From Thiomicrospira sp. XS5 (GTDB lineage: Bacteria; Pseudomonadota; Gammaproteobacteria; Thiomicrospirales; Thiomicrospiraceae): DNA of 64,000 nt. Of this stretch, positions 383 to 15,598 are shown piece by piece. The position numbers and the translations under genes are program-made. The notes beneath the pieces are model-generated. The model saw only the letters and a list, made by a program, of their open reading frames with translations. It did not search any database and was not told the DNA's origin. Location of the stretch: the NCBI RefSeq assembly GCF_001507555.1, contig NZ_LQBO01000001.1:2294001-2358000 (forward strand). The letters run 5' to 3'. How positions within the stretch are numbered: position 1 is the stretch's first letter; each line of letters begins with the position of its first letter.

Positions 383-835
383 TTAACGCGGGTGCGAAGC
401 GTAATAAATCTCACGCAGGAAAATCAACAACCCCACAATCAAGGAGGCCATCGCCAAAATAAACAACACCGCGATAAACAAAGAACCGTTGAACGCAAAA
501 AACGCGCTCAAGAACATGATCATAATCACCAGCGCCACCAGCAAACCGGTCATGGTACAGGCCAGAATCGCGTGATTAAGATAACGGCGGCGGCGCTCCA
601 GAAAATCCAAACGTTGACGGATTTCGCTGGAACGACGGTCCACCGGGCTTTGCGATTTCTCCATGAGCAGGATATTGCTCAACTCCTCCGACTTGGACAC
701 GATGCGCGACAAACGCCCGACCAACACCCCGAGCAAGCTCCCGATACCGGCCAGCAAAAACACCGGCGCCACAGACAGTTGAATCAAGTGGGACACCGTA
801 TTTACCGGCACGGCATCGGAAAACAACTCGGTCAC
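383..835 (-). CDS. DUF2721 family membrane protein
   Basis: A 150-residue integral membrane protein of the DUF2721 family, whose function is unknown. One hydrophobic segment lies near residues 15-40. A charged cytoplasmic stretch follows (about 45-88), rich in Arg and Glu and ending in LERRRRYLNHAI. Two more hydrophobic segments come at about 90-115 and 118-142. The start is GTG at 835, preceded by AAAGGT at a suitable distance. It lies between ppnP and gloA on the same strand, but the spacing does not force an operon. No catalytic motif is visible. Confidence 0.75.
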   Translation of the reverse strand: MTELFSDAVPVNTVSHLIQLSVAPVFLLAGIGSLLGVLVGRLSRIVSKSEELSNILLMEKSQSPVDRRSSEIRQRLDFLERRRRYLNHAILACTMTGLLVALVIMIMFLSAFFAFNGSLFIAVLFILAMASLIVGLLIFLREIYYASHPR

Positions 836-9024: not shown

Positions 9025-9534
9025 TCAAGGCATTTTAATGCCGGTCGGTTCTTTTTCCTGGCCGGGGTGTTCGCGGTCTTCCAGCCGCCAGCGGCGAATC
9101 AGGTTATGAATGTAAATCAACAATACAAAAAACGCCGTGGACACCACGCCCAGAATCAACAAAGTCCAATTCTCCTCCGGCACCGTTTCCAGCAGAATCA
9201 GTTTTCGGATAATCACCACGAATGCGATTTCCAAAAACGTCAATGCATACACGAAACTGTCTTTGATAAACAACGCTTTCACAATCGCCAGAACGATCAG
9301 CGTGAACAACGCATCCGTCAGCAGAATTTTCATCGATGGAAAATTCAATACGCCTTGATGCGATAAAAACTCGAACAACTTGCTCGAAATACTGAACAGG
9401 CACGCGGCCAGATACACAATCATAAAAATCGTCAGAATGATTCGCAACACATTGACGGACTTTTTGAGTTGCTCCTCAAAATCTTCTTGAAAAAAGTGAT
9501 TGGCTTTTTTCAAAAACGCATACAGTGATGACAT
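9025..9534 (-). CDS. PsiE-family membrane protein
   Basis: A 169-residue integral membrane protein of the PsiE (phosphate-starvation-inducible E) family. Four hydrophobic segments are visible at about residues 27-50, 68-88, 92-112 and 120-142, followed by a basic cytoplasmic tail (RRWRLEDREH). The segment AIVKALFIKDSFVYALTFLE is typical of the family. The biochemical function is unknown. No pho box was recognised upstream, so phosphate regulation is not claimed. Confidence 0.75.
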   Translation of the reverse strand: MSSLYAFLKKANHFFQEDFEEQLKKSVNVLRIILTIFMIVYLAACLFSISSKLFEFLSHQGVLNFPSMKILLTDALFTLIVLAIVKALFIKDSFVYALTFLEIAFVVIIRKLILLETVPEENWTLLILGVVSTAFFVLLIYIHNLIRRWRLEDREHPGQEKEPTGIKMP

Positions 9535-9629
9535 CTTTTAAAACACCTTAACACCCGAGAACCGGGCCATAAAACATAGGAAGGAAGAAATTTATTGTAG
9601 CAGATTCACTTCCGTACCAATAACGAAAA

Positions 9630-9645
9630 TCACCAGGCCTGGTGA
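9630..9645. repeat. CCAGGCCTGG iterated palindrome, copy 3 (16-bp palindrome)
   Basis: The decamer at 9633-9642 is extended to the perfect palindrome TCACCAGGCCTGGTGA. It lies in the divergent region between psiE and the Ntn hydrolase, about 115 bases upstream of the latter, with no T-run, so it is not a simple terminator. Confidence 0.9.
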
Positions 9646-9759
9646 AATTAAGTTTTGTACGTATTTTGAACAATCCGTTGAAAAACAGATATGGTAAGAT
9701 GAAATCCACTACTTATTCGTAAACAAGGCAAACCATTCCGTCAAATTAAGGACCTGATA

Positions 9760-10935
9760 ATGACAAAAAAAGCTCATCCGTTAACGCGTATTTTAACCCT
9801 CAGCCTAGCCACAACCGCTTTTGTACTGACGAATACAGCGCAAGCCTGCACTTCATTACTTTATAAAGACGGCAATGGTGCGCCCTACGCCGGCCGCACC
9901 ATGGAATTACCAATGGAGCTGGCGTATCAAGTGAGTTACTTTCCAAAAGGCACCGCTTTCAACTCCAAAATCAAAAACCACCCAGACCTGAACTATCAAT
10001 CAAAATATTCGTTCATTTCCATCACCGTGCCCGACCCAGTGGACAAAACACTCAAAGTTTCCGAAGGCATGAACGACCAAGGCCTGACGTTCAGCCTGCT
10101 CGCCTTTGCCAGCACCAAAGGGCCGGCGGATACGATTAAAAAGACCAAAAGCGTCCTCGCCGCGATTGACCTGGGCGCCTGGACCTTATCGCAATTCAAG
10201 GATGTCGCAGAAGTCAAAACCGCTCTCAAAAAACAACCCGTATTGGTCTCCGCTCTCTTACCGTTAGGCCTCATGAAAACGCCATTTCATTACACCTTGC
10301 ACGATGCCCAAGGCCAATCCGTGGTCATTGAGTTTGCCAACGGTAAACAAACGCTTATCGACAACCCAATCGGCGTCATGACCAATGGCCCAGAGTTCGA
10401 CTGGCACATGACCAACCTAAACAACTACACCTTCTTAAACAACATCGACCAATCCAAAACCACCTTTCACGGCATGGAATTCAACCAACCCGACTCCGGC
10501 ATCGCCACCGCAGGCCTTCCCGCCTCCAACACCTCGGTTGGCCGCTTTGTACGCGCCACCTACTACTCACAATTTGCCGAAAAGGTCGATAACCCCGACA
10601 AAGCCATGACCGTTCTCGCCCACATTATGAACAACTTCGACCGCCCTCGCGGCATCACCATGGACAATCGCTTTAAAGAAGAAATCGCCAATATCACCGC
10701 CCCGGAAGTCGCAGGCCATCCGCTCTACACCTCGGAATACACCTCCTGGACCGCACTGGGCGATTTGCGTAACCTGAAATTTAAAGTCAAACCCTACAGC
10801 CAGCTCAACTACATCAGTTTCGACTTGGCCAAACTGGCTAAAGAGAAACAACCCAAGTCCATTCCGCTGATCCAAATGCCGTTTAATGTGAATGATGTCA
10901 CCGATTGGTTCCGCAAAGCCAGCATTAGAAAATAA
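9760..10935 (+). CDS. Exported linear amide C-N hydrolase (choloylglycine hydrolase family)
   Basis: A 391-residue N-terminal-nucleophile hydrolase of the penicillin V acylase / bile salt hydrolase family. A signal peptide with hydrophobic core SLATTAFVL ends in TAQA, so cleavage leaves Cys30 of CTSLLYKDG as the new N-terminus. In this family the N-terminal Cys is the catalytic nucleophile. Further family residues are visible: Arg in AGRTMELP, Asp in GMNDQGL and Asn in VMTNGPEFDW near residue 210. The physiological amide substrate in a marine autotroph is unknown; N-acyl homoserine lactones are one possibility for this family. A paralogue lies at 19228-20325. Confidence 0.88.
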   Translation: MTKKAHPLTRILTLSLATTAFVLTNTAQACTSLLYKDGNGAPYAGRTMELPMELAYQVSYFPKGTAFNSKIKNHPDLNYQSKYSFISITVPDPVDKTLKVSEGMNDQGLTFSLLAFASTKGPADTIKKTKSVLAAIDLGAWTLSQFKDVAEVKTALKKQPVLVSALLPLGLMKTPFHYTLHDAQGQSVVIEFANGKQTLIDNPIGVMTNGPEFDWHMTNLNNYTFLNNIDQSKTTFHGMEFNQPDSGIATAGLPASNTSVGRFVRATYYSQFAEKVDNPDKAMTVLAHIMNNFDRPRGITMDNRFKEEIANITAPEVAGHPLYTSEYTSWTALGDLRNLKFKVKPYSQLNYISFDLAKLAKEKQPKSIPLIQMPFNVNDVTDWFRKASIRK

Positions 10936-10968
10936 CCACAGCTGTTTATTAAAATTAAGGCAGAATCA

Positions 10969-11664
10969 ATGAAGTTGGATATTGATAAAATTTTAGAAGA
11001 TATTGATGCAAAACATTCTAGACACTATATTCCTTTACATTCATTCCAAAGCTTATACGAAAAAACGGAAAACGCCATTCAAGAACTGGAAAAACTATCA
11101 GTATCTACAGAGACGAAGGATACAATTTTAAAAGCACATGTGATTAATACAGTTACAGCTGTCGAAGTCTATTACAGAACATTAGTCGATTCAGTTTTTA
11201 AGACCTGCAGCCCCAAATCATTCGAAAAAACACTAATTAAACTGCACGACAAAAGCTATAAAATTGATGACTTGATTGTAATGTATAAAAACTCCATTCA
11301 CCCCCTTGAATTAGTCGCATCAAACTTAAACTTTCAGAGTGTCCAAAACATTGATAAATACTTTTCTATTCTGTTACAAAATAAATTTTTTGATGAAATT
11401 AAATCCTTGCGCTACAGAATAAAAGATAAGCCTGAAACAGAAACACAAATTACATTTAAAGAAATAGAAGATCTCAATTACATTTTCAATTTAAGACATC
11501 AGTTAATTCACAATCCAAATTTACAAATTACCATCAATGAAGAGGAATTATTAAACAAAATTGATTCCATTAATGGTGTTGTTATGGCATCGGACCTAGT
11601 TGTAAGACAGTTTGTTTTAACTAATGTAGATCCAGAAATTAAAGACAAGGCAAACACACAATAA
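10969..11664 (+). CDS. HEPN-motif protein, AT-rich (unrecognised family)
   Basis: A 231-residue mostly helical soluble protein. No named family is recognised, but R176-HQLI-H181 in FNLRHQLIHNPN matches the RX4-6H signature of HEPN domains, and it sits in a predicted helix following an acidic helix (FKEIEDLNYI). HEPN proteins are usually RNases in toxin-antitoxin, abortive-infection or CRISPR effectors. The gene is visibly AT-richer than its neighbours and uses many AAA and AAT codons, which suggests horizontal origin. It starts 33 bases after the Ntn hydrolase stop and is followed after 101 bases by a small membrane protein of similar composition. RNase activity is inference. Confidence 0.6.
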   Translation: MKLDIDKILEDIDAKHSRHYIPLHSFQSLYEKTENAIQELEKLSVSTETKDTILKAHVINTVTAVEVYYRTLVDSVFKTCSPKSFEKTLIKLHDKSYKIDDLIVMYKNSIHPLELVASNLNFQSVQNIDKYFSILLQNKFFDEIKSLRYRIKDKPETETQITFKEIEDLNYIFNLRHQLIHNPNLQITINEEELLNKIDSINGVVMASDLVVRQFVLTNVDPEIKDKANTQ

Positions 11665-11765
11665 GTATTACAAAATAGTTTTTATGCCTTTTCAAAAAGT
11701 AAACAAATTTAAATAGAACGCTCAAACCAATTTCACTTGACCTTAGCCAATACGAAAGGAAGACT

Positions 11766-12236
11766 ATGAAATGTAATGAACCTGATTTGACAGATGAACT
11801 TCGTACTCTGAGAGGCGAACATATACAATCTCGCTGGAAACAACTCCATGCCTTATCTAAAGAGACCGGCGAATCGACAATAAAATACCTTTTCACAACC
11901 AATGCTGGTGGAGCCGTAGCTGTTTTAGCCTATTTAGGTTCAGTCTCAGGAAATGGAATACCTGCTTTTTCTGCCAAAATTGCTCTATTTTTTTTCTTTT
12001 GCGGTTTACTATCCGTGGGTATTTATCAAGCGTATATGGTTCATAACCACGAAGGCCTCTTCGTACATTACAAAGGCCTTGTCAAAGACTACTATGGAGA
12101 AAAAATAAGCTGGAATGGTTTACTAGAAGCCGATGAAACAAAAGTTGGGAACTCGAAAATCCCCTATATTCTTGGATATTCTGCCTTTGTTTTCTTCATA
12201 CTAGGTTGTTTTGCTGGAGCTTTCGGAATTTTCTAA
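11766..12236 (+). CDS. Small integral membrane protein paired with the HEPN-motif gene
   Basis: A 156-residue protein with a charged N-terminal helix (TDELRTLRGEHIQSRWKQL) and three hydrophobic segments at about residues 40-60, 70-92 and 130-155. A soluble loop follows the second (HNHEGLFVHYKGLVKDYY). GGAAGA precedes the ATG. Its base composition is AT-rich like the HEPN-motif gene 101 bases upstream, and both lie between core genes, so they look like one inserted cassette. No family is recognised. A membrane partner next to a HEPN protein recalls two-gene defence modules, but this is inference from layout only. Confidence 0.6.
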   Translation: MKCNEPDLTDELRTLRGEHIQSRWKQLHALSKETGESTIKYLFTTNAGGAVAVLAYLGSVSGNGIPAFSAKIALFFFFCGLLSVGIYQAYMVHNHEGLFVHYKGLVKDYYGEKISWNGLLEADETKVGNSKIPYILGYSAFVFFILGCFAGAFGIF

Positions 12237-12254
12237 CACACTAGAACCATTTGG

Positions 12255-13448
12255 TTATCGGTTTAAAGCTTCAGTAGCCATTTTAAACCGCTTGAGCGCC
12301 TCATCCATGGTTTCCGTCGGCACGGCAATATTAATCCGCATAAATCCTTTTCCGACTTCCCCAAAACTTTCACCGTCATTCAGCCCTAGTTGTGCAGTTT
12401 CGGTGAGCCAGCGTTTTAAGTCTTCTTGGCTTTGAAACTTTGTGTCAAAGAGATCGGAAAAATCCAACCACACCAGAAAGGATGCTTCCGGGCGCATGAC
12501 GCGTACGGCGGGCAAACAGTCGGCCAGAGTTTGTTCCAGTCGGTCAATATTATGTTGCAAATGCACCAGCAAGGTATCGCGATAGGCTTTGCCTGCTTCC
12601 GAATAGGCGGCTTGCATGGCTTCTTTGCCGAACAGGTTTAAGTCGTGAATGGAATTGGCACGGCAGACTTTCAGATAAGCCGCTTTCAAAGCTCTGTTAG
12701 CAATAATCGCATAACCGCTTTGCAGGCCGCCGAGATTAAAGGTTTTGCCCGGTGAACTGAGCGTCACCGTATTTTGGGACACCGCTTCCGACAAAGACGC
12801 CATTGGTATGTGTTGCAATGGCGGGAAGGTCATGTCGGCATGGATTTCATCGGACACCACCGTCACGCCGTGTTTCAGGCAAATGTCTGCCAGGCGCTGC
12901 AGTTCTTCCCGCCGCCAAACGCGGCCGGACGGGTTTTGCGGGTTGCAGAACAAAAACAGTTTCACGTCGTTTTCGATAATGGCCGCTTCAAATGCGTCAA
13001 AATCAATTTGATAACGGTTGTCTTGCAACACCAACGGCGCTTCCACCAGACGGCGGCCGTTATTTTCCGGTGCCTGCAAAAACGGCGGGTAAATCGGCGG
13101 TTGCACCAACACCGCATCGCCCGGTTCCGAAAAGGTGGACACCGCCATAAAAAAACCGTTGGCAACATTGTGTGTGAACAGAATGTCCGACGCCTTCACG
13201 TCGTAACCGTATTGCGCCTGCCAATCAATAATCGACTGATACAAACTGTCCGGCATAACGTTATACCCCAGAATCGGGTGTTCCAAACGGCGTTTCAAGG
13301 CGTCCAGAATAAAATCCGGCGTGGGCAAATCCTGATCCGCCACCCACATCGGCAACACCGTTTCCGAGCCGAATAAGCGTTGCCGCAGTTCGTACTTTTC
13401 GGCGTCGGTGCCTAAGCGGGAAATGGCGTGTTCAAAATCTGGAAACAT
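12255..13448 (-). CDS. ovoB: Ovothiol biosynthesis PLP-dependent sulfoxide lyase OvoB (MalY/PatB-like)
   Basis: A fold-type I PLP enzyme of the MalY/PatB beta-C-S-lyase group, 397 residues from ATG 13448. The open frame reaches a TTG at 13487, but the later ATG gives MFPDFEHAI, like MalY-type N-termini. Visible motifs are LPMWVADQD near residue 33, LFCNPQNPSGRVW near 155, VVSDEIHADM near 190 and the PLP lysine in SSPGKTFNLGGLQ near 225. It starts 20 bases after the ovoA stop. In that context it should cleave the histidyl-cysteine sulfoxide made by OvoA to release 5-thiohistidine. Without the neighbour it would only be called an aminotransferase/cystathionine beta-lyase, so the specific name rests on context. 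Confidence 0.85.
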   Translation of the reverse strand: MFPDFEHAISRLGTDAEKYELRQRLFGSETVLPMWVADQDLPTPDFILDALKRRLEHPILGYNVMPDSLYQSIIDWQAQYGYDVKASDILFTHNVANGFFMAVSTFSEPGDAVLVQPPIYPPFLQAPENNGRRLVEAPLVLQDNRYQIDFDAFEAAIIENDVKLFLFCNPQNPSGRVWRREELQRLADICLKHGVTVVSDEIHADMTFPPLQHIPMASLSEAVSQNTVTLSSPGKTFNLGGLQSGYAIIANRALKAAYLKVCRANSIHDLNLFGKEAMQAAYSEAGKAYRDTLLVHLQHNIDRLEQTLADCLPAVRVMRPEASFLVWLDFSDLFDTKFQSQEDLKRWLTETAQLGLNDGESFGEVGKGFMRINIAVPTETMDEALKRFKMATEALNR

Positions 13449-13468
13449 GGCGGCTACTCGGCGACGTC

Positions 13469-15598
13469 TCAGGATTTCTTTTTCCAAAGTGTGACTTCGG
13501 ACAAGGAATGCTGGAACTTGCGTTGCGTCTCGCGAATCACAAACGGCAACTCGAACGGTTCTTGAACCCGCTCGAATTCGGCGTCCAACACAGCGTGCAG
13601 CCCTTCCAGCGTGGTGACGTTTTCACCGCTTTGCGCATCCTTATAACCACCCAGCCAGTGTTCTTTGGCGGTGAACTCTTCCAACCAGGTGTAAGGCGAC
13701 GCCAACAATAGTAAACCACCGTCGTTCATGCGTTCGTGAATCATGCTCAAGAAGCGCTTCGGTTCGTACAAACGGTCAATCAGATTGACGGCCACCACCA
13801 TGTCGTATCCGGTGAAATGCGGTTTCAGGTTGGCGGCGTCCTGTTGCATAAATTCACAGCGTTGCGCTACGTCAGACAACCCCAAGTCGGCCAACGTCTG
13901 CTCTTTGAAATCCATGATTTCACCTTCCGTCGGAATGGTGTAAAGCACATTGCCGGATTCTTTCAATTGGTTGGCGACCTGAATGAAGCGCGCCGAGAAA
14001 TCCAAACCGGTGACCTGCGCGAAATGATGCGCCAGTTCGAAACTGGCACGCCCGACCGAACAACCCACTTCCAGCACGCTCAAATCGTCACGACCGGCTA
14101 AGTCGTTATCGTCGCGCGCCGCTTTAATCGCCAATTCGGCATAAGCCTGCGCAAAATTCGCCACACCGAAATATTCGTCGCCGTAATGGAATTCACAGTA
14201 TTGCGACACCAGATCATCGGTTTCATAAGTGGAGAAATGGGTTTGAACGGTTTCATCCGATTCGATGTAACGGAAACCGGCGTGCTGGAAAAAGTGACGA
14301 CGGAAAGCGTAACGTGAATGGCCGTTGGCTTCGTTACCGGTGGAAATCCAACTGCCGCCTTTAAACAGATTGTGCTGGTTGTCGAACGTCGGCGTGGTGA
14401 AGTCATCGTATAACGGATGCACTTTGAAGCCGTCGTATGGGTAAATCGGCGTTTGCGTCCATTGCCAGACGTTACCGATCACGTCGAAAAAATCGCCGGT
14501 TTCAAAACGATTCACCGGCACCGACGAGGCGTATTGCTGCAAATTGATATTGGCCTCGCCCTGCTTTTCCAACGCGCGGGTATGGTCGCGCAGCCTTAAA
14601 TATTCATCTTCACTCGGCAGGCGAATCGGACGACCAGTCTGATGCCCTTTCCAGTTACAAAAGGCATTCGCTTCCAGGTAATTCACTTCCACCGGCCAAT
14701 CCCACGGCATGGGGATTTCATCGGTCATACAGCGTAAATACCAGGCCTGGTCTTTTTTCACCCAAAAGGTCGGATGTTTGTCCGGCGTGAACTGACGCCA
14801 GCGATTGCCCTCGTCGGTCCAATATTCCGGGTTGTCGTAACCGCCGGCTTCGACAAACTCCAGATATTCATGGTTGGACACTAAAAAAGCCGCGGCTTTA
14901 AAGTCGCTGACATCGGCTTGATGCTGGCCGTATTCATTGTCCCAGCCGTAGGTTTCCGCCGGGTCTTGATGGTCGATGGTGACGCACCCACCGGGGACGT
15001 CGAACAAAATGTTTTCCGGCGCCTGACCGCTGTCCGGGCACACCGGAAACAACGGATGCGGCTTGACCGATTCAATCGGCAATTGGCGAATCAGCACTGA
15101 CGAAGTTTCCAGATGAATGCGCTCATGTTCAATGCCCATCATCACCGGCCACATCGGGCTTTCCCAATCAATCGGCAGGTGAAAATCCACGGAGTCAATC
15201 AACTGATTGACCGCGTCGCGCACTTGCTGACGGTATTCGCGGACCGCATCGACACTCGGCCAGTCGTAATGCGATTCGTCCAAGTCGTCCCAAGACATTT
15301 CATCCACGCCGATGGCGCACATGGATTCGATTTGCGGATTAATGCGCTCCGGCAACAACTTGGCCAGCACCAGTTTATTGGTGAAAAAAGTAGCCGTGTG
15401 CCCGAAATAAAAAATCAGCGGATGGCGCAGTTCACAGGGGCGTTCATAGTAAGCCTCGTCCGACACCAGGGTTTCGAATAAGGTTTCGTAGGCATCGTAA
15501 GTGGCATTGAAATAATGTTTGATTTCGGCGCGTTTGGCTTCAATTTCGCCTTGATTTAAAAACACTGGTTTTGAAATCAAATCGTCTCGGTTTAACAT
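13469..15598 (-). CDS. ovoA: 5-histidylcysteine sulfoxide synthase / 4-mercaptohistidine N-methyltransferase OvoA
   Basis: A 709-residue three-domain enzyme of ovothiol A synthesis. An N-terminal DinB-like domain carries the non-heme iron motif HX3HXE as H158-ERI-H162-L-E164. A formylglycine-generating-enzyme-type domain follows (about residues 200-450; FKGGSWIS and YAFRRHFFQHAGFRYI are visible). The C-terminal SAM methyltransferase has motif I VLEVGCSVGRASFELA near 503 and its acidic and DMVVAVNLIDRL strands after it. The iron domain joins cysteine to the imidazole C5 of histidine as a sulfoxide, and the methyltransferase later methylates the thiohistidine ring nitrogen. The three-domain layout and length separate it from EgtB of ergothioneine synthesis. 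It is the first gene of the operon with ovoB. Confidence 0.93.
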   Translation of the reverse strand: MLNRDDLISKPVFLNQGEIEAKRAEIKHYFNATYDAYETLFETLVSDEAYYERPCELRHPLIFYFGHTATFFTNKLVLAKLLPERINPQIESMCAIGVDEMSWDDLDESHYDWPSVDAVREYRQQVRDAVNQLIDSVDFHLPIDWESPMWPVMMGIEHERIHLETSSVLIRQLPIESVKPHPLFPVCPDSGQAPENILFDVPGGCVTIDHQDPAETYGWDNEYGQHQADVSDFKAAAFLVSNHEYLEFVEAGGYDNPEYWTDEGNRWRQFTPDKHPTFWVKKDQAWYLRCMTDEIPMPWDWPVEVNYLEANAFCNWKGHQTGRPIRLPSEDEYLRLRDHTRALEKQGEANINLQQYASSVPVNRFETGDFFDVIGNVWQWTQTPIYPYDGFKVHPLYDDFTTPTFDNQHNLFKGGSWISTGNEANGHSRYAFRRHFFQHAGFRYIESDETVQTHFSTYETDDLVSQYCEFHYGDEYFGVANFAQAYAELAIKAARDDNDLAGRDDLSVLEVGCSVGRASFELAHHFAQVTGLDFSARFIQVANQLKESGNVLYTIPTEGEIMDFKEQTLADLGLSDVAQRCEFMQQDAANLKPHFTGYDMVVAVNLIDRLYEPKRFLSMIHERMNDGGLLLLASPYTWLEEFTAKEHWLGGYKDAQSGENVTTLEGLHAVLDAEFERVQEPFELPFVIRETQRKFQHSLSEVTLWKKKS
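14741..14750. repeat. CCAGGCCTGG iterated palindrome, copy 4 (inside ovoA)
   Basis: Exact decamer in frame as Gln-Ala-Trp in KKDQAWYLRC of OvoA. Confidence 0.9.

Follow-up and report, generated by a model that had tools for sequence, protein, structure and literature searches.

A divergent predicted HEPN protein and an orphan membrane protein in a variable chromosomal slot of Thiomicrospira sp. XS5

Results

A variable slot between two conserved genes

The DNA analysed here, hereafter called the window, is a 64,000-nucleotide (64-kb) stretch of the Thiomicrospira sp. XS5 genome. Two genes of this stretch, ORF 1 and ORF 2, lie 101 bases apart on the same strand, between a gene matching PF02275 and a gene matching PF00155 (Table 1). 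According to Pfam, the PF00155 aminotransferase adjoins a DinB/FGE-sulfatase/methyltransferase protein. We take the gene for this OvoA-type protein and the neighbouring aminotransferase gene to be ovoA and ovoB, respectively. A sequence-only reading, made before any database search, had placed the two ORFs between an Ntn hydrolase and ovoB; the Pfam matches upstream and downstream agree with this placement.

Table 1 Features of the slot and its flanks, in window coordinates.
Feature	Position	Strand	Basis
Left flank, choloylglycine-hydrolase-family (Ntn) protein, conserved	9760..10935	+	PF02275, E 2e-48; 90% identical in G002
Variable slot (hot spot)	10936..12254		blastn against G002; three unrelated genes there in the sister species
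ORF 1, HEPN protein, Ribo L-PSP-HEPN (PF18735), 231 aa, predicted RNase effector	10969..11664	+	Pfam
R176-H-Q-L-I-H181 codons, predicted HEPN catalytic motif	11494..11511	+	alignment of four sequences
ORF 2, 156-aa orphan membrane protein, about three hydrophobic segments	11766..12236	+	hydropathy
Right flank, class I/II aminotransferase, conserved	12255..13487	-	PF00155, E 5.4e-41; 94% identical in G002

In blastn comparisons of the window with the sister species G002, homology ends at 10938 and restarts at 12253. The slot of G002 encodes a GNAT acetyltransferase, an HNH protein and a 197-aa protein. The slot is a swappable hot spot within the genus. The 197-aa protein (L029:5827-6420), which has no significant Pfam match, carries the sequence RNAEMH, another R-x4-H, and could be one more HEPN-like protein of this slot.

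Both genes stand apart in composition, as had been noticed from the letters: GC is 0.303 in ORF 1 and 0.393 in ORF 2 (30% and 39%), against 0.502 (50%) in the whole window. Third-position GC is 29% in ORF 1 and 31% in ORF 2, whereas the left-hand neighbour has 63%. When 700-base stretches of the window are ranked by GC, the lowest ten begin between 10701 and 11601, and all overlap ORF 1 or ORF 2. Two inverted-repeat arms of 19 nt, 79% complementary, are found close to the slot ends (10925-10943 and 12218-12236). These were considered as the terminal repeats of an element and taken for chance pairing among AT-rich stretches.

A strict attC scan found no site beside ORF 1 or ORF 2 (9500-12600), and an integron-cassette origin of the two genes was rejected on this basis. 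The same scan has some background, as it gives one match in the rest of the whole window (677-784); among ten stretches scanned, it gave matches in L005 (one site, on both strands), L071 (one) and L085 (three). A relaxed scan yielded 42 matches in the 64-kb window. Because of this high background, the relaxed scan is relied on solely for a second site at the DUF1643 gene of G004, described below. Promoter-like sites are no more frequent than expected by chance (4 found, 5.1 expected), and the two terminator-like sites (0.8 expected) both fall within ORF 2. The 14-base palindrome CACCAGGCCTGGTG occurs three times in the window, at 9631, 23255 and 26119. Its 20-base form is found in 1 to 3 copies in 5 of the 11 genus genomes and, in G002, overlaps the Ntn-hydrolase gene at its 3' end; the palindrome is perhaps a terminator stem.

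ORF 1 matches the Ribo L-PSP-HEPN family

ORF 1 matches PF18735 (HEPN_RiboL-PSP) with 31.2 bits, above the gathering cut-off of 28.4 (E 2.5e-7). The match aligns residues 35-205 with positions 5-182 of the 191-position profile. The only other Pfam match at E <= 5 is the sub-threshold Sin3_corepress, and no Abi_2 domain was found at that limit. The RX4H motif reported earlier at R176 and H181 is present as RHQLIH (176-181), the sole RX4H in the protein. An alignment of four sequences, that of the window included, shows R176, H177 and H181 unchanged throughout, and the pattern R-H-x-L-x-H is retained down to 25% identity. By itself, RX4H is weak evidence, a lead rather than proof, because it is frequent in shuffled sequences: 19% of 5000 shuffles of the ORF 1 residues contained it, and 3.7% contained the narrower pattern R[NDH]xxxH. 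The HEPN assignment proposed by the sequence-only reading is thus upheld by a profile match over cut-off together with a conserved motif.

Comparison of ORF 1 with its copy in the congener G004 gave a dN of 0.077 and a dS of about 1.4. The resulting dN/dS of about 0.05 is a rough value, since dS is near saturation, and indicates that ORF 1 is under purifying selection.

An AlphaFold model of ORF 1 built from two sequences is of low confidence (pLDDT 51, pTM 0.49), the best ten-residue blocks reaching 72-81. Long helices are predicted at 23-42, 47-79, 163-181 and 191-220, the motif ending the third. In VIA-align 2, the six best rows for this model are all HEPN toxins (Z 8.5-9.9, identity 7-13%); for helical bundles, Z values below about 13 may reflect nothing more than a common arrangement. 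Foldseek returned nothing at E <= 0.001. The family match and the conserved motif support the HEPN identity of ORF 1, with weaker backing from the low-confidence fold; the protein belongs to a small, divergent sub-clade of the Ribo L-PSP-HEPN family.

PF18735 is scattered across the class. Matches are found in 29 of 369 class genomes (own genome included), 20 of them over cut-off, and in none of 14 control genomes. Thirty of the 34 match rows yielded loci, 29 without that of the window. In 27 of these 29 loci, R[NHDGQK]xxxH occurs in the matched frame, and the two others are partial matches. Within the flanks covered, 1.5 kb or less on either side of PF18735, a DUF262-type gene is found in 9 of the 29 loci. 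Six of these, together with L085, provided the seeds of the DUF262 model, and only the three others are independent finds.

Relatives of ORF 1 are few and widely scattered

Homologues of ORF 1 were identified in the congener G004, in Zhongshania sp. BJYM1 and on the Acinetobacter lwoffii plasmid pALWEK1.5, with identities of 87%, 50% (over the alignment) and 25%, respectively. The G004 copy exceeds the PF18735 cut-off. The Zhongshania relative falls below it (25.0 against 28.4) and weakly matches the Cas13-ApeA model of PADLOC (E 0.0031); for the Acinetobacter relative, Pfam gave nothing at E <= 0.5. G004 is the only one of the 10 other genus genomes with a homologue. Counting its own genome, ORF 1 is found in 2 of 55 relatives, 1 of 369 class genomes and 3 of 62 genomes of the order, the third being a fragment. 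This fragment, in another genus of the family (L072:5406-5552, contig G425:C138), is a truncated copy of the ORF 1-type HEPN gene covering 49 profile positions, apparently a decayed relative from the same sub-clade. One of 72,556 plasmid records carries a relative of ORF 1. Relatives of ORF 1 or ORF 2 were not found in phage records, and three scans of viral contigs, within the reach of their search patterns, gave no relative of ORF 1.

DNA similarity between the window and G004 copies spans 10975-11674, about ORF 1 alone, and the G004 gene occupies a different place, a variable site beside what is presumably the pyruvate dehydrogenase E3 gene. In Zhongshania and on the Acinetobacter plasmid, the relatives are flanked by other genes again. 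ORF 1 is patchy in distribution and horizontally mobile.

The island of G004 (L005:9580-13508) features, all in the same direction, the HEPN gene, two genes for ThsB-like TIR proteins and one for a DUF4231/SLATT protein, and it also carries DUF1643. At the same chromosomal site, G001 has a DUF262 and PF18735 pair (L085), the DUF262 protein of which matches NsnA and PD-T4-2_A in PADLOC, and G010 has a gene set with a transposase (L086) that we take to be of the IS3 type. The company in G004 raises the question of whether ORF 1 is the effector arm of a larger TIR/SLATT signalling system, the window copy being a detached remnant. We regard this as quite unlikely. No TIR or SLATT protein was found among the scanned or annotated neighbours at the window, at L004 (three downstream ORFs) or at L006 (the annotation and one ORF). 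Moreover, DUF1643 in G004 is flanked by attC-like sites (L005:11952-12032 and 12551-12616, the second from the relaxed scan only), so that the neighbours in this island may be independent cassettes. An integron integrase over the TIGR02249 cut-off is encoded in 4 of the 11 genus genomes, including G002, and in neither G004 nor the genome of the window; weaker matches occur in all 11 genomes and in all 14 controls.

ORF 2 is an orphan membrane protein

ORF 2 has strongly hydrophobic segments at two places, where the best windows are 68-86 and 135-153, and a weaker one at 42-60, with a mean hydropathy of 1.36. Of the three membrane segments previously proposed, two are therefore clear and the third is less so, although three remain plausible. 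The protein has no match at E <= 5 in Pfam or PADLOC, and the lack of any Pfam match led us to reject an identity as a SLATT protein; its best matches in NCBIfam and PHROG have E-values of 0.77 and 0.3. An AlphaFold model from the single sequence reached a pLDDT of 58, which we considered too low for a structural comparison.

In G176, the genes beside a homologue with 55% identity encode a ParE-type toxin and what is probably a ribbon-helix-helix antitoxin, the latter with Pfam matches below cut-off. A second clear homologue, in G747 (E 1.8e-35), is near a transposase gene, presumably of the IS110 type. Weak partial matches occur in G627 and G118, and a further weak match in G444. With its own genome included, ORF 2 is found in 1 of 55 relatives, 3 of 369 class genomes and 5 of 398 phylum genomes, the last count being obtained with a two-sequence profile; plasmid records gave no match. 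ORF 2 is apparently mobile on its own. A role in solo defence or membrane stress is only a guess.

ORF 1 and ORF 2 are not found together elsewhere

The sequence-only reading regarded the two genes as a cassette of a HEPN protein and a membrane partner, and the arrangement invites this: they share strand, AT-richness and a slot with different content in the sister species, and are separated by 101 bases. ORF 1 would then be an RNase toxin, and ORF 2 its membrane antitoxin, sensor or anchor. The search for co-occurrence speaks against such a module. None of the four other ORF 1 loci read (G004, Zhongshania, the Acinetobacter plasmid and the G425 fragment) has a homologue of ORF 2. Among them, the strongest ORF 2-like match has an E-value of 0.041 and is separated by about 3 kb from the HEPN gene of L005. 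Conversely, none of the four other ORF 2 loci read (G176, G747, G627 and G118) has a homologue of ORF 1. In these loci, each gene is found without the other, and the two are together in none of them. The similarity of the window to G004, restricted to about ORF 1, and the unequal GC of the two genes point the same way. These samples are small; one locus is a fragment, and the Zhongshania contig stops about 1.6 kb beyond the HEPN gene. The two genes may yet occur together in rare cases elsewhere. Given the lack of co-occurrence in the loci read, the two-gene module is rejected as highly improbable. The earlier remark that the pair was not a recognised one holds for the pair itself; the HEPN family has been described, in the survey by Anantharaman et al. 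(2013, PMC3710099).

Discussion

The data are best explained by a stand-alone, mobile PF18735 HEPN protein, likely an abortive-infection RNase, and a separately acquired orphan membrane protein; we give this reading a probability of about 0.65. By analogy with known HEPN proteins, we infer RNase activity, a dimer site, a defence role, a trigger and a mode of silencing for ORF 1. The protein would most likely be a metal-independent endoribonuclease, two subunits of which would pair so that their R176/H181 motifs build one active site. It would be kept silent in healthy cells and freed once a phage or some other element has been detected; cleavage of host or phage RNA would then stop growth. ORF 2, an unrelated membrane orphan, would have landed independently in the same chromosomal hot spot.

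Several observations do not sit easily with this explanation. ORF 1 matches no PADLOC model at E-values up to 5, a collection that includes PD-T4-2_A and perhaps no models of PD-T4-5 or PD-T7-3. Its Zhongshania and Acinetobacter relatives miss the PF18735 cut-off, the structure model is poor and Foldseek gave no match at the limit used. DUF262, frequent beside PF18735, is missing here: the six proteins scanned with Pfam between 9025 and 15598 include no DUF262, MNT, sensor or antitoxin protein, and the Rfam scan revealed no RNA regulator. Phage records and the viral contigs reached hold no relative.

ORF 1 shares with the Ribo L-PSP-HEPN family, as described in the 2013 survey (PMC3710099), the profile, the Rx4H motif, a bacterial host and a patchy distribution. 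In that survey, the family is reported to have a conserved motif and to occur in operons with ParB; ORF 1, in contrast, has neither an adjacent ParB-like/DUF262 gene nor an L-PSP fusion. In a review (PMC10952713), PF18735 is tabulated for the tested anti-phage systems PD-T4-2, PD-T4-5, PD-T7-3 and ApeA. PD-T4-2 and PD-T4-5 of E. coli were reported by Vassallo et al. (2022, PMC9519451), and their likeness to ORF 1 concerns this family listing (domain table in PMC10952713) and published descriptions. PD-T4-5 is described in PMC9519451 as a plasmid-borne, distant AbiF/D relative acting in abortive-infection defence. PD-T4-2 also features DUF262 in the domain table, a GmrSD_N/ParB-like partner, whereas the neighbours of ORF 1 are the PF02275 protein, ORF 2 and the PF00155 protein. 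HEPN-MNT toxin-antitoxin systems are the top structural hits for the low-confidence model (6m6u, 8xeh, 7ae2-7ae9), but no MNT gene is found among the neighbours scanned, 9025 to 15598.

The abortive-infection proteins AbiF and AbiD (Abi_2) are listed as distantly related to the Ribo L-PSP-HEPN family in Table 1 of PMC3710099. According to PMC12373285, an RNA neutralises AbiF of C. difficile; this RNA is RCd22. By comparison, ORF 1 could be a type III-like toxin whose antitoxin is a small RNA. ORF 1 differs from AbiF in having no Abi_2 match, and Rfam, which may or may not include the abiF motif, gave no match at gathering level between 9000 and 16000. Tandem repeats were not found between 9500 and 12500, the sequence separating the two ORFs folds less well than shuffled versions of it (194 of 200 are as good or better), and only 33 bases separate the preceding stop codon from the start codon of ORF 1. 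We consider RNA control of this kind unlikely.

It is similarly improbable that ORF 1 has no part in defence and is a non-catalytic HEPN protein that binds RNA or acts as a regulator. Some HEPN families do include predicted inactive members, according to PMC3710099, and the RNase activity of ORF 1 is a prediction. However, the motif is intact in the four aligned sequences, the distribution is patchy and the G004 copy keeps defence-like company.

The settings of the ORF 1 sub-clade, alone in the window and beside TIR-SLATT-TIR genes in G004, might also be taken to mean that it forms a stand-alone RNase effector distinct from DUF262-linked PF18735 proteins and plugs into varied sensing circuits of hosts or mobile elements, possibly as a promiscuous effector that responds to a TIR-made nucleotide signal. 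We consider this very unlikely.

A mobile abortive-infection HEPN protein beside an unrelated orphan thus remains our preferred explanation. For annotation, adjacency alone is a poor ground for naming ORF 2 the partner or antitoxin of ORF 1. For the family, ORF 1 would add a divergent, mobile member to a group of HEPN proteins already linked to phage defence.
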